The notes below the pieces were generated by a model. That model saw nothing but the letters and a program-made list of their open reading frames with translations. It made no database searches and had not been told where the DNA came from. This document shows positions 5,421 to 17,913 of a DNA stretch of 64,000 nucleotides, in pieces (positions within the stretch are counted from its first letter, which is position 1; each line of letters opens with the position of its first letter). The stretch is taken from contig NZ_KV917368.1 in assembly GCF_002019605.1 (NCBI RefSeq), forward strand, positions 341,809-405,808, written 5' to 3'. The stretch is from Alkalihalobacterium alkalinitrilicum. GTDB lineage: Bacteria > Bacillota > Bacilli > Bacillales > Bacillaceae_F. Made by a program: the position numbers and the translations under genes.

Positions 5421-5471
5421 TTTACAATTTTCAGATATTAAATTGACAAATTGTAAAATGTGGATTATTCT
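5421..5471 (+). promoter_or_regulatory. Promoter and palindromic operator of the SorC-type operon
   Basis: TTTACAATTT (5421-5430) and AAATTGTAAA (5448-5457) form a perfect 10-bp inverted repeat with a 17-nt spacer. TTGACA at 5443-5448 overlaps the right arm, and TATTCT follows with a 17-nt spacer at 5466-5471. A palindrome straddling the -35 box of the regulator gene suggests autoregulation. The layout also argues that translation starts at 5535, not at the GTG at 5460 that lies inside the promoter. The 5331-5420 stretch upstream shows nothing I can name. Confidence 0.6.
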
Positions 5472-5534
5472 AAAAACGCTCAGTTGAACAAAATTACACC
5501 ATTGCACAATTGTTACGAGAAAGGAGGATATTGT

Positions 5535-6491
5535 TTGCTACAAGAACGGTTTCGTTTAATGGCAAAAGTTTGTCAGCTGTACTTTGTAGAAGGCTTAAAT
5601 CAACAAGCAATTGCGGATCACTATGGAATTTCGAGAACACAAGTTAGCAGGTTAATTAGTGCAGCTAAGACAGAAGGTATCGTTGAAATTAATATACGTC
5701 ATCCATTTGGACATGTATCCGAAATGGAAAAGGAATTGGTCAAACATTTCCAACTCACTGATGTGGTTTTAGTAGATACGAATGGTGTTGATGAGCTTGT
5801 TGCAGAAATTTTACTCGCACAAGCTGGTGCCGCTTATTTAGAAAATATAATAAAAAATGAGTACATAATTGGTGTTATGGCTGGGAAATCGATTGCAAAT
5901 CTAGCGCAAGAAATGACAGACATATCAAAAAAGAACTTACAATTTGTACCGATGATTGGTGGATGGGGTTCAGAAGGTACGGACTGGCATGCAAATGCGA
6001 ATACTACAAGGTTTGCAAAAAATGTGAAAGGTAGTCATTGGCTCTTAAATGCTCCAGCAATTGTGAGTTCCAATGACATACGAAACCACCTTATTCAAGA
6101 ACCTGAAATTTTAAAAATCAAGAAATTATTTCAAAAAATTGATGTTGCACTTATCGGTATTGGAGAAATTTCTGAATGCGCTACTTTTGTTCAGTCGACG
6201 AATATGGGGCTTGATCAATTAAGAAGCATTTTGGACAAGGGTGCCGTTGCTAGTATTTGTACTTCTCTAATAAATGCTAATGGGGAAGAGATTGATACGG
6301 TTTTTGCTCAACAAATGATTGGGATTTCAAGTGAAGAATTAAAGCATATTCCAAATGTTATTGGTACCGCAAGAGGAGAACATAAAGTGGATGCCATTTT
6401 AGCGGCGGTTCGTGGGAAGTGGATCGACGTTTTAGTGACCGATTTAAATACAGCAAAGAAAATGCTAGAACAAGAAAATATAAATATATAA
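5535..6491 (+). CDS. SorC-family sugar-responsive transcriptional regulator
   Basis: A 318-residue regulator of the SorC/DeoR-type family (like LsrR or CggR), which bind DNA through an N-terminal helix-turn-helix and sense a phosphorylated sugar with a C-terminal isomerase-like domain. The helix-turn-helix is at about residues 20-45 (LNQQAIADHYGISRTQVSR). The effector domain has the family stretches YIIGVMAGKSIANLAQ and ALIGIGEIS. A TTG start at 5535 is supported by AAGGAGG 7 nt upstream and by the promoter lying further left. It is the first gene of an operon whose last gene is a sugar kinase, so the inducer is probably the kinase product. Which sugar is unknown. Confidence 0.85.
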   Translation: MLQERFRLMAKVCQLYFVEGLNQQAIADHYGISRTQVSRLISAAKTEGIVEINIRHPFGHVSEMEKELVKHFQLTDVVLVDTNGVDELVAEILLAQAGAAYLENIIKNEYIIGVMAGKSIANLAQEMTDISKKNLQFVPMIGGWGSEGTDWHANANTTRFAKNVKGSHWLLNAPAIVSSNDIRNHLIQEPEILKIKKLFQKIDVALIGIGEISECATFVQSTNMGLDQLRSILDKGAVASICTSLINANGEEIDTVFAQQMIGISSEELKHIPNVIGTARGEHKVDAILAAVRGKWIDVLVTDLNTAKKMLEQENINI

Positions 6492-6507: not shown

Positions 6508-7434
6508 ATGAAAAAGATTTTAGGGATGCTAATGATCGTTTCAGTCATGATGTTAGTAGTTGCTTGTTCTGAGTCTGGAAGTAGTTCAACAGAGGGGGAT
6601 GATAAACGAGTCGCTATTCTAACGCCTTATCTATCTTCAGTAACAACCAAACAAATGGTCGATGAACTAGAAAAAAATGCGAAAGAAAAAGGCTGGTCAA
6701 CGAATGTCGTTGATACAAATGGTGATGTAGGTGCTCTTGCTTCAAGAATGGAAGATGTCATTTCATCGAATGTCGATGCGATTGTTTTAGTGAGTACTGA
6801 TCCAAATCAAGTTGCAACTCAAATCCAGCAAGCTGCAGAACGTGGTATTCATGTATTTGGTAGTGATTCAAGTTATATAGAAGGCATGACGTTAAATGCG
6901 ACAAGTGATAATCGAGCAATGTCAAAAATGATTACGGAACATCTTATTGAACAAATGGGCGAAGAAGGTAATTTAATTGTATTTACTCACCGTCCACATC
7001 CAGGTGTATTACAAAGAACGATCGAACTCGATGAAATTCTAGCAAACTATCCAAATATTAATGTTATTACAGAACAAGAAATTCAGGTACCAGGACCGAT
7101 TGAGAACTCTCGTCAACAAATGGAAAATTTATTGTTAGCCAATTCTGAAGAAGGTTCTATTACAGCAGTATGGGCAGCTTGGGATGAGCCAGCAATTGGT
7201 GCAGCGCAAGCAATAGAATCTGTAAATCGTGAAGATATTATTGTGACTGGAATTGATGGGAATAGTCAAGCGGTTGAAATGATTGAAAATGGTTCTCCTA
7301 TTAAAGCAACAGTGAAACAAAACTTTATAGGAATGGCTCAAATCGTTATTGATCAAATGGATCATGTATTTAATGGTGAAGAGGTTGAAGATACAGAAAT
7401 GTATGCTCCTGCAGAAATGATTAAAGCAGACTAA
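6508..7434 (+). CDS. Sugar ABC transporter substrate-binding lipoprotein (RbsB type)
   Basis: A 308-residue periplasmic-binding-protein type 1 family member. The signal peptide ends in a lipobox (VVAC, Cys about residue 20) followed by a Ser/Gly-rich linker, so it is anchored outside the membrane. The mature part starts KRVAILTPYLSSVTTKQMVD and contains the repeated Rossmann-like layout of ribose/inositol-type binding proteins (DAIVLVSTDPNQVATQIQQA; TGIDGNSQAVEMIENG). GGGGGAT precedes the ATG, 16 nt after the regulator. It delivers the substrate to the ABC proteins encoded next. The ligand cannot be read from the sequence. Confidence 0.88.
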   Translation: MKKILGMLMIVSVMMLVVACSESGSSSTEGDDKRVAILTPYLSSVTTKQMVDELEKNAKEKGWSTNVVDTNGDVGALASRMEDVISSNVDAIVLVSTDPNQVATQIQQAAERGIHVFGSDSSYIEGMTLNATSDNRAMSKMITEHLIEQMGEEGNLIVFTHRPHPGVLQRTIELDEILANYPNINVITEQEIQVPGPIENSRQQMENLLLANSEEGSITAVWAAWDEPAIGAAQAIESVNREDIIVTGIDGNSQAVEMIENGSPIKATVKQNFIGMAQIVIDQMDHVFNGEEVEDTEMYAPAEMIKAD

Positions 7435-8967: not shown

Positions 8968-9939
8968 TTGGACATGAATACACCAGTCAACAAAAAATCA
9001 AATAATTATAAGAGTTTAATAAGTTCATACGGAACGATCATAGCAGGTTTAGGCATTATTATAATTTTTTCAATATTAAGTCCTTCCTCATTTGCATCCT
9101 TTGATAATTTTATTAATATTACACGGCAAATTTCCTTCCTCGTTATTATTGCGTTAGGAGCAACCCTTGTGATGGCTGTAAAAGAATTTGATCTATCCAT
9201 TGGTGCAATGGCCAGTTTAGGAGGCGTACTTTCCGCGTTGTTAGCGGCTTCAGGGACTCCCATTATTTTTTGCTTACTAGTGCCTATCATCGTTGGGTTT
9301 GTTGTTGGATTTTTTAATGGTGCCATTGTTACTAAGTTTAAGGTTCTTTCATTTGTAACGACACTTGCCATGGGAACGGTCATCGGTGGTGTTACGTTTT
9401 GGCTAACAGGTGGAGCAACAGTCTTTGAAAATATTCCAGAAGGTTTTAAATTTTTAGGACAATCAAAGCTAGCTTTTTTACCTACATTATCTGTGATTAT
9501 GTTTGTACTTGTGATTATCTTCTGGTACATTATGTCGCAAACATCTCTTGGTAGAAGATTATACGCGATCGGTGGTAATGAAAAAGCATCTGAAGTATCT
9601 GGCATCAATATTGCTAGATATAAAAATATTGCGTTCGCTCTTTGTGGAATGCTTGCGGCTTTTACAGGAGCATTACTTGCTTCTCGACTAGGTTCTGCCC
9701 ATCCGACGGGTGGAGATGGGTTCTTTTTAAATGCTTATGCTGCGGTATTTTTAGGGATGACAATCGTCAAAAATGGGGTGCCAAATATATTAGGTACTCT
9801 TTTCGGAGCTGCTATCATTGGGATCATGGCTAATGGTCTGACCATTTTAGAAGTTCCTTCATTTATTCAGAACATAATTACAGGGGCAATTATAATCATC
9901 GCTTTGATATCGCAAAAAATAGGAAGTGATACGAAATGA
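8968..9939 (+). CDS. Sugar ABC transporter permease (RbsC type)
   Basis: A 323-residue integral membrane protein of the ribose/AI-2 class permeases. I chose the TTG at 8968 because AAAGGAGGTC lies 9 nt upstream; an ATG two codons later is a minor alternative. Hydrophobic segments run through the whole length. The segment VMAVKEFDLSIGAMASLGGV and the cytoplasmic loop GRRLYAIGGNEKASEVSGIN are family hallmarks that contact the ATPase. One permease gene is present, so it should act as a homodimer. The last codons overlap the start of the TrpA-like gene (ATGATG/TGA). Confidence 0.92.
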   Translation: MDMNTPVNKKSNNYKSLISSYGTIIAGLGIIIIFSILSPSSFASFDNFINITRQISFLVIIALGATLVMAVKEFDLSIGAMASLGGVLSALLAASGTPIIFCLLVPIIVGFVVGFFNGAIVTKFKVLSFVTTLAMGTVIGGVTFWLTGGATVFENIPEGFKFLGQSKLAFLPTLSVIMFVLVIIFWYIMSQTSLGRRLYAIGGNEKASEVSGINIARYKNIAFALCGMLAAFTGALLASRLGSAHPTGGDGFFLNAYAAVFLGMTIVKNGVPNILGTLFGAAIIGIMANGLTILEVPSFIQNIITGAIIIIALISQKIGSDTK

Positions 9940-10712
9940 TGGCGAGTCAAAAAAAATTGATTGATAAAGTAAAGAATGATCACGAAGCATTTCTAACAGG
10001 CTATTTTGTAGCTGCTGATCCTAGTGTTATAGATTCCATCTATATCATAAAGAAAGCGGTCGCTGCTGGCTTAGATGTTGTTGAGATTGGAATTCCAAGT
10101 AAGGTTCCATTTTTAGAGGGAGATGTAATTCGTAGAGCACACAACCGTACGAGAAAGCATTTTAATAAAAGTGCTCAATTTCTCGACTTTTTAACAAAGT
10201 TACGCCACGAAATTACTGTTCCAATTTGGATTATGGGTTATAGTGCAGAAGTCGTTGACTCCAACCTTTACATAGAGATTGCACAAAAAAATTTAGCGAG
10301 CGCTTTTATTATTCCTGATATTTCAAAAGGGAATTTATCAAAGGTTAGAAAAGAATTGAAACGATGTAACACCGAAATGATACCTGTGATCAACAATCAT
10401 ATGAGTGAAGAAGATATATTATTTGCTAGTCAAGATTGTTCTATTATCTATTGTCAAATGCACGCAGGAAAGACAGGGACCGATTTAAAGAATTTAGATT
10501 CTGTACCCTTATTTGAAAAAAAGATAAGAAAATTGTCTAACGCTACACTTATGGCTGGCTTTGGTATTAAAAATGCAAATCTTGTACGGGAAATTATCGC
10601 TTGTGGCTTTGATGGTGTTGTTGTTGGTAGTGAGATTGTCAAAACAATGGAAAAAGAACCAATCGAAACCCTTGTTGAATTTATTCATCAATTAAAGCAA
10701 GCAACAAAGTGA
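9936..10712 (+). CDS. Tryptophan-synthase-alpha-like TIM-barrel enzyme in a sugar operon
   Basis: A 258-residue protein with the TrpA fold signatures. Residues 48-53 (VVEIGI) align with the catalytic Glu49 region of TrpA, so Glu50 is probably that acid. The position of Asp60 (canonical DPLADG) reads VPFLEG, with Glu61 instead. The phosphate-binding loops look intact: AGKTGTD, AGFGIKN and GVVVGSEIV. TrpA cleaves indole-glycerol phosphate to indole and glyceraldehyde 3-phosphate. No trpB or other trp gene is near. The gene overlaps the permease and precedes an FGGY kinase by 14 nt. I infer a retro-aldol or related step on a phosphorylated import product. It is not a normal tryptophan-pathway enzyme, judging from context. 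Function remains unproven. Confidence 0.72.
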   Translation: MMASQKKLIDKVKNDHEAFLTGYFVAADPSVIDSIYIIKKAVAAGLDVVEIGIPSKVPFLEGDVIRRAHNRTRKHFNKSAQFLDFLTKLRHEITVPIWIMGYSAEVVDSNLYIEIAQKNLASAFIIPDISKGNLSKVRKELKRCNTEMIPVINNHMSEEDILFASQDCSIIYCQMHAGKTGTDLKNLDSVPLFEKKIRKLSNATLMAGFGIKNANLVREIIACGFDGVVVGSEIVKTMEKEPIETLVEFIHQLKQATK

Positions 10713-10726
10713 AAGGAGGTACATGA

Positions 10727-12202
10727 ATGAGTTACATTGCGTCCTTCGATATTGGTACAACGTCTATAAAAGGAATTCTATTAAAGAAAGATGGCTCATT
10801 AATTGGACAAGCGAGTTATGATCTTAATACAATCCATGGTTCAAATGGGGAAATTGAACAAAACCCTAAGGATTGGTGGGATGGAGTTGTAACCATTACA
10901 AACAAATGGTGGGAAGAAGATGTGATTTCCCCTTCAGACATTGCGATGATAACGTTTAGTGGACAAATGCAAGATATAATACCTATTGCGGCCGACGACC
11001 GAATACGAAATGCTATTTTATATTCGGACAGTAGAGCTACCGTTGAAGCGGACTTTATTAATAAACAAATTCCGAACAGTAAAGCAATAATTGCTAATCA
11101 TATCGATGGAGCTTCTCCTTTCGCTAAACTATTATGGTTAAAAAAGCGTGATGAAGAGACGTATAATAAAAGTTTTTCGTTTTTATTTAGTGCCAAAGAT
11201 TATATTATCTATCGGTTGACAAATAGAGTTGCCACCGATCCAGTTACTGGTGCTACGACGGGAATGATGAATCTTAAAACAAAAGATTGGCAAAGCGACT
11301 GGTTAGTCACTAATGATCTATCAATAGAAAAATTACCACCGATTCTTTTCCCTGACGAACAAGTGGGGGTAGTGACTTCCGAAGCGGCTAAGCAAACAGG
11401 GTTTCTAGAGGGTATACCTGTTCTTTGTGGTTGTGGGGATGCGGGAGCCTCAACTATGGGTGCTGGTGCTATTCAAGAAGGGGATAGCTATATTTATTTA
11501 GGAACTACAGGATGGATTGCAGTTCCTTCTAATCAGGTTAAAGAACTCGATTATGGTATTTTTAACTTAGCTCATCTTCCTAAAGATCGGTATATTTCAA
11601 TTGCACCATTATTAAATGTAGGTAATGTACATACTTGGGGTGTTCAAACGCTTACAGAAAAAGAAGAAAACCGATACCAGGCATTTGAAGCACTCGCAAG
11701 CTCAGCACCAGTTGGAGCAGCGGGGTTATTGTTTTTACCATATATTCATGGCGAGCGTTTCCCAGTTAATGACTCCAATGCAACGGGCGTTTATTTCGGA
11801 ATTACGCCATCTACGAATCGTGAACACATGGCACGTGCTCTTATTGAGGGCTTATGCTTTTCATTCCGACAAACATTTGAAATTTTAATACAAAATAAAA
11901 GAAAAGCAATTACCCTTATCGGCGGCGGAACGCAAAGTGCCACATGGTGCCAGGTACTTGCTAGTATTCTCGGAACGACAATACGAATTCCTAGAAATAG
12001 TGAGTATTTACCTGCAATCGGTGCAGCCGCTTCTGCTTTTGTGAACTTAAAGTGGGTAGAAAGCTATGAGGATTTTGCAGATGAAGTCCTCTTTTCCGAG
12101 AAAGACGAAATATATTGTCCTATTCTAGAAGACACTCAAGTATATGACGAGATCTATAATAAATTTTTGAAACTTTATCCTGCAATAAAACAAATCTCTT
12201 AA
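10727..12202 (+). CDS. FGGY-family carbohydrate kinase
   Basis: A 491-residue kinase of the FGGY family (xylulokinase/gluconokinase/LsrK relatives). The N-terminal phosphate loop is FDIGTTSIKG (residues 6-15). The central part has VLCGCGDAGASTMGAGA and YLGTTGWIA, and the C-terminal domain has the family ATP-binding stretch LIGGGTQSATWCQVLA. AAAGGAGGT precedes the ATG. As last gene of the SorC-ABC-TrpA-like operon it should phosphorylate the imported compound with ATP in the cytoplasm, and the product is likely both substrate of the TrpA-like enzyme and inducer of the SorC regulator. The exact sugar or polyol is not determinable by eye. Confidence 0.88.
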   Translation: MSYIASFDIGTTSIKGILLKKDGSLIGQASYDLNTIHGSNGEIEQNPKDWWDGVVTITNKWWEEDVISPSDIAMITFSGQMQDIIPIAADDRIRNAILYSDSRATVEADFINKQIPNSKAIIANHIDGASPFAKLLWLKKRDEETYNKSFSFLFSAKDYIIYRLTNRVATDPVTGATTGMMNLKTKDWQSDWLVTNDLSIEKLPPILFPDEQVGVVTSEAAKQTGFLEGIPVLCGCGDAGASTMGAGAIQEGDSYIYLGTTGWIAVPSNQVKELDYGIFNLAHLPKDRYISIAPLLNVGNVHTWGVQTLTEKEENRYQAFEALASSAPVGAAGLLFLPYIHGERFPVNDSNATGVYFGITPSTNREHMARALIEGLCFSFRQTFEILIQNKRKAITLIGGGTQSATWCQVLASILGTTIRIPRNSEYLPAIGAAASAFVNLKWVESYEDFADEVLFSEKDEIYCPILEDTQVYDEIYNKFLKLYPAIKQIS

Positions 12203-12219
12203 TAGTGTAAGTAAAAATG

Positions 12220-12257
12220 GTACCTTGTACCTTTAGCGAACTAAAGGTACAAGGTAC
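12220..12257. terminator. Long perfect hairpin after the sugar operon
   Basis: A perfect 17-bp stem with a CGAA tetraloop (12237-12240) lies 18 nt after the kinase stop. There is no long T-run on the plus side (TATTATTG follows), so termination is likely from stem strength but not certain. Confidence 0.6.
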
Positions 12258-14593: not shown

Positions 14594-16108
<1,515 letters not shown>

Positions 16109-16133
16109 ATAGAAAAAGGAATAGGAAATAGTC

Positions 16134-16196
16134 GAGACTACAATACTCAATGGTTATGTGTTTGGGTAAAAATTGAGAGGTTGTGGTCTCTTTTTG
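16134..16196 (+). promoter_or_regulatory. Leader terminator between glpK and glpD (candidate GlpP target)
   Basis: GAGAC at 16134-16138 begins an imperfect long stem that closes with GTCTC at 16186-16190 and is followed by TTTTTG. ACAA/TTGT and CAAT/ATTG pairs extend it. In Bacillus, the antiterminator GlpP with glycerol 3-phosphate acts on such leaders before glpD. Position and shape fit that model, but it may simply be the glpK terminator. Confidence 0.6.
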
Positions 16197-16236
16197 TTTC
16201 CCTTCATAAGATAGATATATAAAGGGGAGTTTGGTT

Positions 16237-17913
16237 ATGAGAAGTTCATTATCAAGTAAACAGCGTAGCGTTTATTTAGAGGAGATGTCTAATACAACAT
16301 TAGATGTATTAGTGATTGGTGGTGGAATTACAGGAGCAGGCATTGCCCTAGATGCCCAAGTGCGGGGATTAAATACAGGATTAATTGACATGCAAGATTT
16401 TGCTGCAGGAACATCTAGTCGGTCAACGAAACTAGTCCATGGTGGATTACGTTACTTAAAGCAATTGGAAGTGAAGCTTGTAGCAGAAGTTGGAAAAGAG
16501 CGAGCGATTGTTTATGAAAATGCCCCACACGTAACCACACCTGAATGGATGTTACTCCCAATCATTGAAGGAGGTACATTTGGTAAAACCACAACATCCA
16601 TTGGCTTAAAAGTTTATGATTATTTAGCAGGTGTCAAAAAAGCTGAACGCCGAAAAATGTTAAATAAAAATCAAACATTGCAAATAGAACCACTCATCTG
16701 TAGTGATCAATTAAGAGGTGGCGGCATTTACGTAGAGTATCGAACAGACGATGCTCGTTTAACGCTTGAAGTAGTAAAAGAAGCGGTTCATCGGGGCGCA
16801 AAAGCTGTTAATTATGCTAAGGCTGAAGGATTTATCTATGAAAATGGTAAAATTACTGGGATAAAGGTACGAGATTTTATAACCGAAAAGTTGTATAGAA
16901 TATTTGCTAAGAAAATAATCAATGCTGCGGGTCCTTGGGTCGATACACTTCGTGATAAAGACCATTCGAAAAAAGGGAAGTACTTGCATTTAACAAAAGG
17001 AGTTCACCTCGTCGTTGATGGGAGTCGATTTCCGTTAAAGCAAGCTGTTTATTTTGATACAGAGAAAGATAAACGTATGGTATTTGCTATTCCTCGGAAT
17101 GGAAAAACATATATTGGAACAACCGATACGTACTATAATGAAGATATTGTTCATCCGCGAATGACAGTAGCTGATCGTGATTATATAATGGCGGCATGTA
17201 ATTATATGTTCCCATCTGTGAATTTGACAGTAGATGATATTGAGTCTAGTTGGACTGGACTTCGTCCATTAATTCATGAAGAAGGTAAACGCGCCTCTGA
17301 AATTTCTCGTAAAGATGAAATCTTTTTCTCGGAAACGGGCCTGATTTCCATTGCTGGTGGTAAGTTAACAGGATATCGAAAAATGGCTGAACGAATTGTC
17401 GACATTGTAGCAAAAGAGCTAGGAAATCATCAACATTGTACGACCGCTTCAATTAAACTTTCAGGTGGCGATGTTGGTGGATCTAAACTGTTTGAGCTAT
17501 TTGTTAAGAAAATGATGAAAGAAGGTAGAGCGATCGGACTAACAGAAATGGAAGCAAGCCGATTAGTGAGGTTATATGGATCCAATGTGAGTCTTATTTT
17601 TGATATTATAAAAATGAATAAGGAGGAAGCACTAAAAAATAAATTGCCGATCACGATATTTGCACAAATCAAGTATGGTATTGAAGAAGAAATGATTTCT
17701 ACTCCGATTGACTTTTTCAATCGCAGAACAGGAGCGCTATATTTTAATATCAACTGGGTCAAACAGTGGAAGAACGAAATCGTATCTTATATGAAAAAAG
17801 AATTAAATTGGACCGACGAGCAAGTCGTTAAATATGAAACATATTTAGAGTCAGAAATTTATCATGCGCAATATCCAGTTGATGGTAAGAAGGGAGTAAA
17901 GAAAGCAATATAA
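16237..17913 (+). CDS. glpD: Aerobic glycerol-3-phosphate dehydrogenase
   Basis: A 558-residue FAD enzyme oxidising glycerol 3-phosphate to dihydroxyacetone phosphate at the membrane and feeding electrons to quinone. The dinucleotide motif VIGGGITGAGIALDAQVRG is near the N-terminus, followed by AAGTSSRSTKLVHGGLRYL, the GlpD family signature. FAIPRNGKTYIGTTDT and SSWTGLRPLI are also typical. I chose the ATG at 16237 with AAAGGGGAG upstream, not the TTG at 16231. It completes the glycerol utilisation pair with glpK. Length matches the Bacillus enzyme. Confidence 0.96.
   Translation: MRSSLSSKQRSVYLEEMSNTTLDVLVIGGGITGAGIALDAQVRGLNTGLIDMQDFAAGTSSRSTKLVHGGLRYLKQLEVKLVAEVGKERAIVYENAPHVTTPEWMLLPIIEGGTFGKTTTSIGLKVYDYLAGVKKAERRKMLNKNQTLQIEPLICSDQLRGGGIYVEYRTDDARLTLEVVKEAVHRGAKAVNYAKAEGFIYENGKITGIKVRDFITEKLYRIFAKKIINAAGPWVDTLRDKDHSKKGKYLHLTKGVHLVVDGSRFPLKQAVYFDTEKDKRMVFAIPRNGKTYIGTTDTYYNEDIVHPRMTVADRDYIMAACNYMFPSVNLTVDDIESSWTGLRPLIHEEGKRASEISRKDEIFFSETGLISIAGGKLTGYRKMAERIVDIVAKELGNHQHCTTASIKLSGGDVGGSKLFELFVKKMMKEGRAIGLTEMEASRLVRLYGSNVSLIFDIIKMNKEEALKNKLPITIFAQIKYGIEEEMISTPIDFFNRRTGALYFNINWVKQWKNEIVSYMKKELNWTDEQVVKYETYLESEIYHAQYPVDGKKGVKKAI

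Follow-up and report, generated by a model that had tools for sequence, protein, structure and literature searches.

Tryptophan synthase is the textbook pair of mutually dependent enzymes, and plants also have stand-alone TrpA-type lyases. The Lsr autoinducer-2 operon brings together, in one unit, a SorC-type regulator, a CUT2-type importer, an FGGY kinase and a TIM-barrel lyase. Among the plant enzymes, maize BX1 shares ~63% identity with maize TrpA and has both catalytic residues intact, and for a TrpA to stand alone loops 2 and 6 must be altered, as described for BX1 (PMC11574760). Plants also have a catalytically dead TSB pseudoenzyme that activates TSA, with release of indole (PMC12727527). 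Here we describe a bacterial TrpA-like protein, encoded between an importer and a kinase, that is probably (we estimate about 0.75) a TrpB-independent TrpA-type lyase releasing glyceraldehyde 3-phosphate (G3P).

The operon around the TrpA-like gene

The window, the 64-kb stretch of DNA analysed here, lies at C1:342-406 kb (contig 1 of genome G000, 341.8-405.8 kb). The TrpA-like gene is the fifth in a close-packed unit that runs from a SorC-type regulator through a binding protein (SBP), an ATPase and a permease to the TrpA-like protein and an FGGY kinase. Its ORF shares 4 bases with the end of the permease gene, and 14 bases separate it from the kinase gene. The features are as follows.

5460-6491, plus strand: SorC/DeoR/LsrR-type regulator, 343 residues; Pfam Sugar-bind (PF04198) 218 bits, HTH; NCBIfam LsrR-like 141 bits, below cut-off
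6508-7434, plus strand: sugar-type (CUT2/RbsB fold) lipoprotein SBP, 308 residues; Peripla_BP_4 146 bits
7455-8966, plus strand: CUT2-type ABC ATPase, 503 residues; ABC_tran in two stretches (two ABC domains), RbsA-like
8974-9939, plus strand: CUT2-type ABC permease, 321 residues counted from the ATG at 8974, in an ORF open from 8920; BPD_transp_2 153 bits
9936-10712, plus strand: TrpA-like enzyme, 258 residues; Pfam Trp_syntA 127 bits
10083-10085, plus strand: codon of Glu50 (TrpA Glu49), invariant in the clade (17/17)
10116-10118, plus strand: codon of Glu61 (TrpA Asp60), Asp in 13/17 and Glu in 4/17
10727-12202, plus strand: FGGY carbohydrate kinase, 491 residues; XylB-like, under the XylB cut-off; nearest solved chain 3hz6, from Chromobacterium violaceum
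12219-12257, listed on the minus strand: inverted repeat of 17 pairs 3' of the kinase gene, a possible terminator from a consensus scan only

With a Peripla_BP_4 binding protein, a double-ABC ATPase and a BPD_transp_2 permease, the importer is of the CUT2 ABC type. The kinase scores 339 bits against the xylulokinase XylB equivalog TIGR01312, below its cut-off of 380. An ordinary Lsr system was ruled out by the scores for LsrK (148 bits against a cut-off of 528), LsrB (27 against 384) and LsrR (141 against 486). Genes for a glycerol kinase and a glycerol 3-phosphate dehydrogenase lie 2.4 kb past the operon (window 14600-17913), with htpG between; this pair is not found beside the operon in other genomes.

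The TrpA-like protein scored 127 bits against Pfam Trp_syntA (PF00290, cut-off 27) and 114 bits against NCBIfam trpA (TIGR00262, cut-off 102), and automatic annotation would therefore name it TrpA. Several clade members pass the NCBIfam cut-off (window 9936-10712, L074:9989-10753, L077:9995-10783), and database entries of this clade labelled tryptophan synthase alpha are probably misannotated. Its AlphaFold2 model is a TIM barrel (pLDDT 93.6), whose best matches among solved structures are all of the TrpA family, with Salmonella TrpA on top (Z 35, rmsd 1.9 Å over ~254 residues). Maize BX1 is its third-best sequence match in the PDB. Thus, by sequence family, by fold, and by catalytic Glu49 with a carboxylate at position 60, the protein belongs with TrpA; its TrpB-facing residues in loop 2, its genomic setting away from trpB and a trp operon, and its position outside the canonical clade all set it apart.

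It is not the organism's TrpA, because an ordinary trpA and trpB lie in a complete operon at 2.13 Mb (C1:2131 kb; trpA, trpB, trpC-F). There is no trpB in the 64-kb window, and the genome has a further, orphan trpB at C1:2283 kb. The first-pass annotation had placed a TrpA-like ORF with no TrpB partner at 9936-10712, between a sugar permease and an FGGY kinase, and was exact on each of these points.

Relatives of the protein fall into a distinct group. A search of 101 related genomes gave one further member (G050, 58% identity), the other hits being canonical TrpA; a class-level search (399 genomes) gave six more, with scores of 186-226 bits against at most 106 for the rest, and a phylum-level search gave one more. 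Scanning contigs from one genome per species added members in Virgibacillus, Peribacillus, Brevibacillus, Paenibacillus and Cohnella, as well as in Shimazuella, Hydrogenibacillus, Peptococcaceae and a MAG of Anaerolineaceae. The clade now comprises 17 distinct loci, the window included, from Bacillota and one Chloroflexota MAG. The 17 proteins group together in a maximum-likelihood tree, as a single clade (support 99/95) apart from canonical TrpA. Viral contigs held no relative of the window protein, and its plasmid matches were canonical or distant TrpAs.

Gene order is strictly kept: SBP, ATPase, permease, TrpA-like protein and kinase follow one another at all 17 loci, mostly with the regulator homologue in the same position in front. 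A survey of the neighbourhoods of close homologues and a structure prediction had both been proposed at first pass; the permease and kinase flank the TrpA-like gene in 17/17 loci, and the model matches TrpA. The SBP is among the best-kept parts (53-81% identity across the clade), compared with 31-58% for the TrpA-like protein. In a class sample of 300 genomes, SBP matches at E<=1e-50 came from exactly the 7 genomes that hold the TrpA-like gene. At the Paenibacillus selenitireducens locus (L078:2316-5147) there is a second FGGY kinase (33% identity) just upstream of the regulator, with a putative xylose isomerase gene before it.

The first-pass expectation that close homologues would not stand beside trpB held for 16 of the 17 loci, whose covered flanks lack trpB. 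It failed once, in Peribacillus saganii, where an orphan trpB (L077:3669-4871) lies ~0.7 kb upstream of the operon's regulator gene. This gene speaks for tryptophan salvage, in which imported indole-glycerol would yield indole and then, through TrpB, tryptophan, the TrpA-like protein being a specialised alpha subunit. We regard salvage as improbable, given the full trp operon in the window genome and the 16 loci with no nearby trpB. The orphan-TrpB clade is moreover widespread in the class in genomes that have neither the operon nor an adjoining trpA (~30/151 genomes), and the orphan trpB of the window genome at C1:2283 kb is one of its members; for this reason, and as a single locus, the P. 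saganii gene was rejected as a stable partner. Genome G005 carries, on a 202-kb contig (contig 2, L033:7574-15154), a second trpB-trpA pair near methyltransferase, aminotransferase and radical-SAM-like genes, which has the look of a natural-product cluster that draws on tryptophan or indole.

Catalytic site and TrpB-facing loop

We compared the 17 clade members with ~100 canonical TrpAs, position by position. Residue numbers are those of Salmonella TrpA; in the reference sequence used, the landmark residues fall at their published numbers. The canonical set was chosen by a motif filter, passed by 99 of 124 loci, which may overstate its uniformity at positions 53-61.

Glu49, Pro57, Gly61, Ile64, Tyr102, Asp130, Tyr175, Thr183, Gly184, Phe212, Gly213 and Gly234 are invariant in the clade (17/17). 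In the window protein, Glu50 and the motifs AGKTGTD, GFGIKN, VVGSEIV and PFLEG are present as first reported. In TrpA, Asp60 stabilises the charge at indole N1, and Thr183 of loop 6 orders Asp60 (PMC9512447). Position 60 is Asp in 13 clade members and Glu in the remaining 4, among them the window protein. The exchange is thus within-family variation and not a hallmark, and the weight that the first-pass annotation laid on an altered second acid was misplaced, a carboxylate being kept in all 17. For the same reason, loss of catalysis through Asp60 to Glu was dismissed as a family trait. A Schiff-base aldolase acting through Lys179 of the AGKTG motif was likewise ruled out, as this position is T, K, S, A, P, E or R across the clade.

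The clade differs from canonical TrpA in loop 2, which contributes an Asp56-Lys167 contact to the interface with TrpB. Position 54, F or Y in the ~100 canonical proteins, is Ser in 16/17 clade members and Gly in 1/17; Asp56, present in the same canonical set, is kept in only 3/17 and is mostly Asn; and Ser55 is lost in most. The window protein has S/K/V at 54/55/56. Since loop 2 forms part of the TrpB interface (PMC9512447), these losses also count against tryptophan salvage. A lost partner face combined with a complete catalytic and phosphate site suggests a lyase that works free of TrpB.

Gln177 and Trp98 are new and invariant in the clade, and Tyr179 occurs in 16/17. Judged by sequence comparison, the hallmark of the clade is the loss of TrpB-facing residues in loop 2 while the catalytic and phosphate site stays whole, together with Gln177 and Trp98. 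Because these two residues are new and invariant, the pocket differs from the indole pocket of canonical TrpA, and the aglycone may be more polar than indole, or not an indole at all.

A polar Gln177 in the pocket would also suit the main rival reading, sugar catabolism, in which a rare ketohexose would be taken up and phosphorylated on C6, and the TrpA-like enzyme would then break its C3-C4 bond to give G3P and dihydroxyacetone, or a deoxy form of the latter. The CUT2-type transporter and the XylB-like FGGY kinase point the same way. So does the SorC-type regulator, as such regulators usually sense phosphorylated sugars. We consider the ketohexose route unlikely but a serious competitor; a point against sugar catabolism is that G3P is not obtainable from a pentulose 5-phosphate.

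The several pocket residues that differ from TrpA could instead indicate that a barrel derived from TrpA now catalyses another reaction, isomerising or epimerising the kinase product to supply the pentose phosphate pathway. Such reactions occur in related phosphate-binding barrels. However, both catalytic carboxylates and Thr183 of loop 6 are kept in 17/17, and the operon has no further conserved enzyme to use such a product; we consider a changed reaction very unlikely.

TrpA and TrpB genes beside related transporters

Relatives of the window's SBP in alphaproteobacteria also lie beside TrpA-type genes. Three Nitratireductor plasmids carry the order AraC-kinase-SBP-ATPase-permease-GntR, with trpB-trpA divergent beside it. 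A Pseudomonadota sample contained one genome with this layout (56-84% identity) and two trpA copies. Among 190 genomes from the family of that genome, nine had a related SBP, and TrpA or trpB homologues lay in the cluster in 8/9. Divergent trpB-trpA pairs beside AraC, FGGY kinase, CUT2 transporter and GntR genes were seen on plasmids and chromosomes (L186:6952-16001, L189, L190, L187 and L191 (Nitratireductor plasmids), L195 and L206-L208).

Clusters of one layout (type N; G1065, G1303, G1393 and G1328) have a canonical, divergent trpBA, with the G1065 contig ending inside trpB. Two trpA copies occur in G1065 and G1393, and the linked trpA of G1393 is a near copy of the second, located elsewhere. 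The active-looking trpBA pairs of the Nitratireductor plasmids and type N clusters, and these two double trpA copies, favour salvage.

Clusters of another layout (type II; G1416, G1375 and G1279) read on one strand AraC, II_A1 (a very divergent TrpA), kinase, SBP, ATPase, permease, a TrpB-like protein and a second TrpA (TrpA2). In all three, Lys87, the PLP lysine of TrpB, is replaced by Tyr in the TrpB-like protein (HTGAHK to FNGGNY), which also has E109D and Ala at the Asp305 site. The genes are the following.

L210:5296-6489, minus strand: TrpB-like protein with no PLP lysine, between the CUT2 permease and TrpA genes
L211:5572-6762, minus strand: the same, in the same position
L213:5124-6314, minus strand: the same, in the same position

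These proteins are candidate bacterial TrpB pseudoenzymes, and a TrpB-like protein lacking this lysine argues against salvage. The neighbouring TrpA keeps its beta-facing loop. The pair appears to resemble the plant TSA/TSB-like pair, which would fit a free aglycone as the wanted product.

G1371 has only II_A1, kinase, SBP, ATPase and permease, which is the window's minimal set with the TrpA gene across the kinase. A separate canonical trpA lies elsewhere in G1371 and in all type II genomes. II_A1 shares Ser54 (3/4) and Gln177 (4/4) with the window clade, but the tree does not join them. In all, four TrpA lineages, three of them beyond the window clade, occur beside this SBP. The type II kinases come from a different FGGY subfamily (25% identity), so the link runs to TrpA chemistry and the ligand and not to one inherited block. 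One transporter family in varied layouts, with four TrpA lineages and different kinases, therefore points to an imported ligand that needs TrpA chemistry. The ketohexose reading leaves unexplained the presence, beside the same transporter family, of canonical trpBA or of TrpA together with a TrpB pseudoenzyme. G1325, with a related SBP and kinase and no adjoining TrpA, counts against our best model.

The SBP itself was modelled with AlphaFold2 (pLDDT 89), its nearest solved folds being 3l49 and 4wt7 (Z ~31). We compared it with RbsB, whose ligand contacts include the sugar-stacking Phe15 and Phe16. Phe15/Phe16 correspond to Thr46/Thr47 (the first variable), Arg90 to Ser, Gly or Ala, Asn190 to Trp225 (Phe in type II) and Phe187 to Trp222; Asp89, Arg141, Asp215 and Gln235 are kept. 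Loss of the two ribose-stacking Phe residues and the change of Asn190 to Trp225 weigh against the ketohexose reading. Both Trp residues are shared by 3l49 and 4wt7, and 4wt7, from Agrobacterium vitis, has been reported in complex with allitol (PMC10318746), a point for the ketohexose reading. A pocket in which the conserved polar residues hold a polyol end and aromatic residues form a wall would be compatible with an aryl- or indolyl-glycerol, which falls short of proof. The sugar (CUT2) type of the SBP, its allitol-linked relative and a kinase nearest to xylulokinases count against an indole-like ligand.

Proposed pathway and comparison with known systems

Import, phosphorylation and TrpA-type retro-aldol cleavage to G3P and an aglycone is the best-supported reading of these data. 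In this scheme, the ABC importer would take up a neutral compound in which an indole-like group (electron-rich and N-heteroaromatic) bears a side chain resembling glycerol; indole-3-glycerol is one example. Phosphorylation of its terminal hydroxyl by the FGGY kinase would give a compound of the indole-3-glycerol-phosphate type. The TrpA-like enzyme, acting without TrpB, would cleave it with Glu50 as acid/base and the Glu61 carboxylate stabilising the aglycone. D-glyceraldehyde 3-phosphate would enter glycolysis, and the aglycone would be set free. We give the complete scheme, indole-like aglycone included, an even chance. Across the 17 loci the operon has no conserved gene that would make use of the aglycone, which we count against this scheme.

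The first-pass proposal of a partner-free retro-aldolase that acts on the kinase product and releases G3P finds partial support: apart from its emphasis on the second acid, it fits all findings and is strengthened by the synteny at 17/17 loci, the separate clade and the alphaproteobacterial TrpA links. A wider claim is tentative, and we would sooner expect it to fail than to hold: that Bacillota, Chloroflexota and Alphaproteobacteria share a dedicated route of import and TrpA-type cleavage for indole-glycerol-like compounds, which would have recruited at least four TrpA lineages, once with a TrpB pseudoenzyme switching TrpA to aglycone release, convergent with the plant TSA/TSB-like pair.

The literature searched held no description of a bacterial stand-alone TrpA-type lyase in an uptake operon, and nothing useful on TrpA-like proteins linked to sugar kinases or on natural indole-glycerol. 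The family is known; as far as searched, the operon setting and the partner-free form are new, and real novelty hinges on the substrate. If the scheme is true, it would give CUT2 importers a new substrate class and supply indole chemistry with naturally TrpB-free TrpA scaffolds, and the alphaproteobacterial clusters would offer a bacterial TrpB pseudoenzyme.

Compared with the Lsr operon, the window unit has the same kinds of gene (with weak NCBIfam scores), but it has no LsrF or LsrG and only one permease gene. Compared with TrpA (PF00290, TIGR00262), the fold, Glu49, a carboxylate at 60, Thr183 and the phosphate loops are shared, whereas the window cluster has no trpB partner, F54 and D56 are lost, Gln177, Trp98 and Tyr179 are new, and the protein belongs to a separate clade in a sugar-type operon. 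The plant TSA/TSB-like system (PMC12727527) is matched by the type II clusters in that TrpA is paired with a TrpB missing a catalytic residue; the bacterial changes are losses of Lys87 and Asp305 and E109D (E to A in plants), they lie inside a transporter-kinase operon, and the TrpB-like gene is absent from the window itself. The plant stand-alone indole-3-glycerol-phosphate lyases (maize BX1, IGL) share the TrpB-free mode proposed here; the window protein is far more distant from TrpA than BX1 is, and it is bacterial and encoded in an uptake operon.
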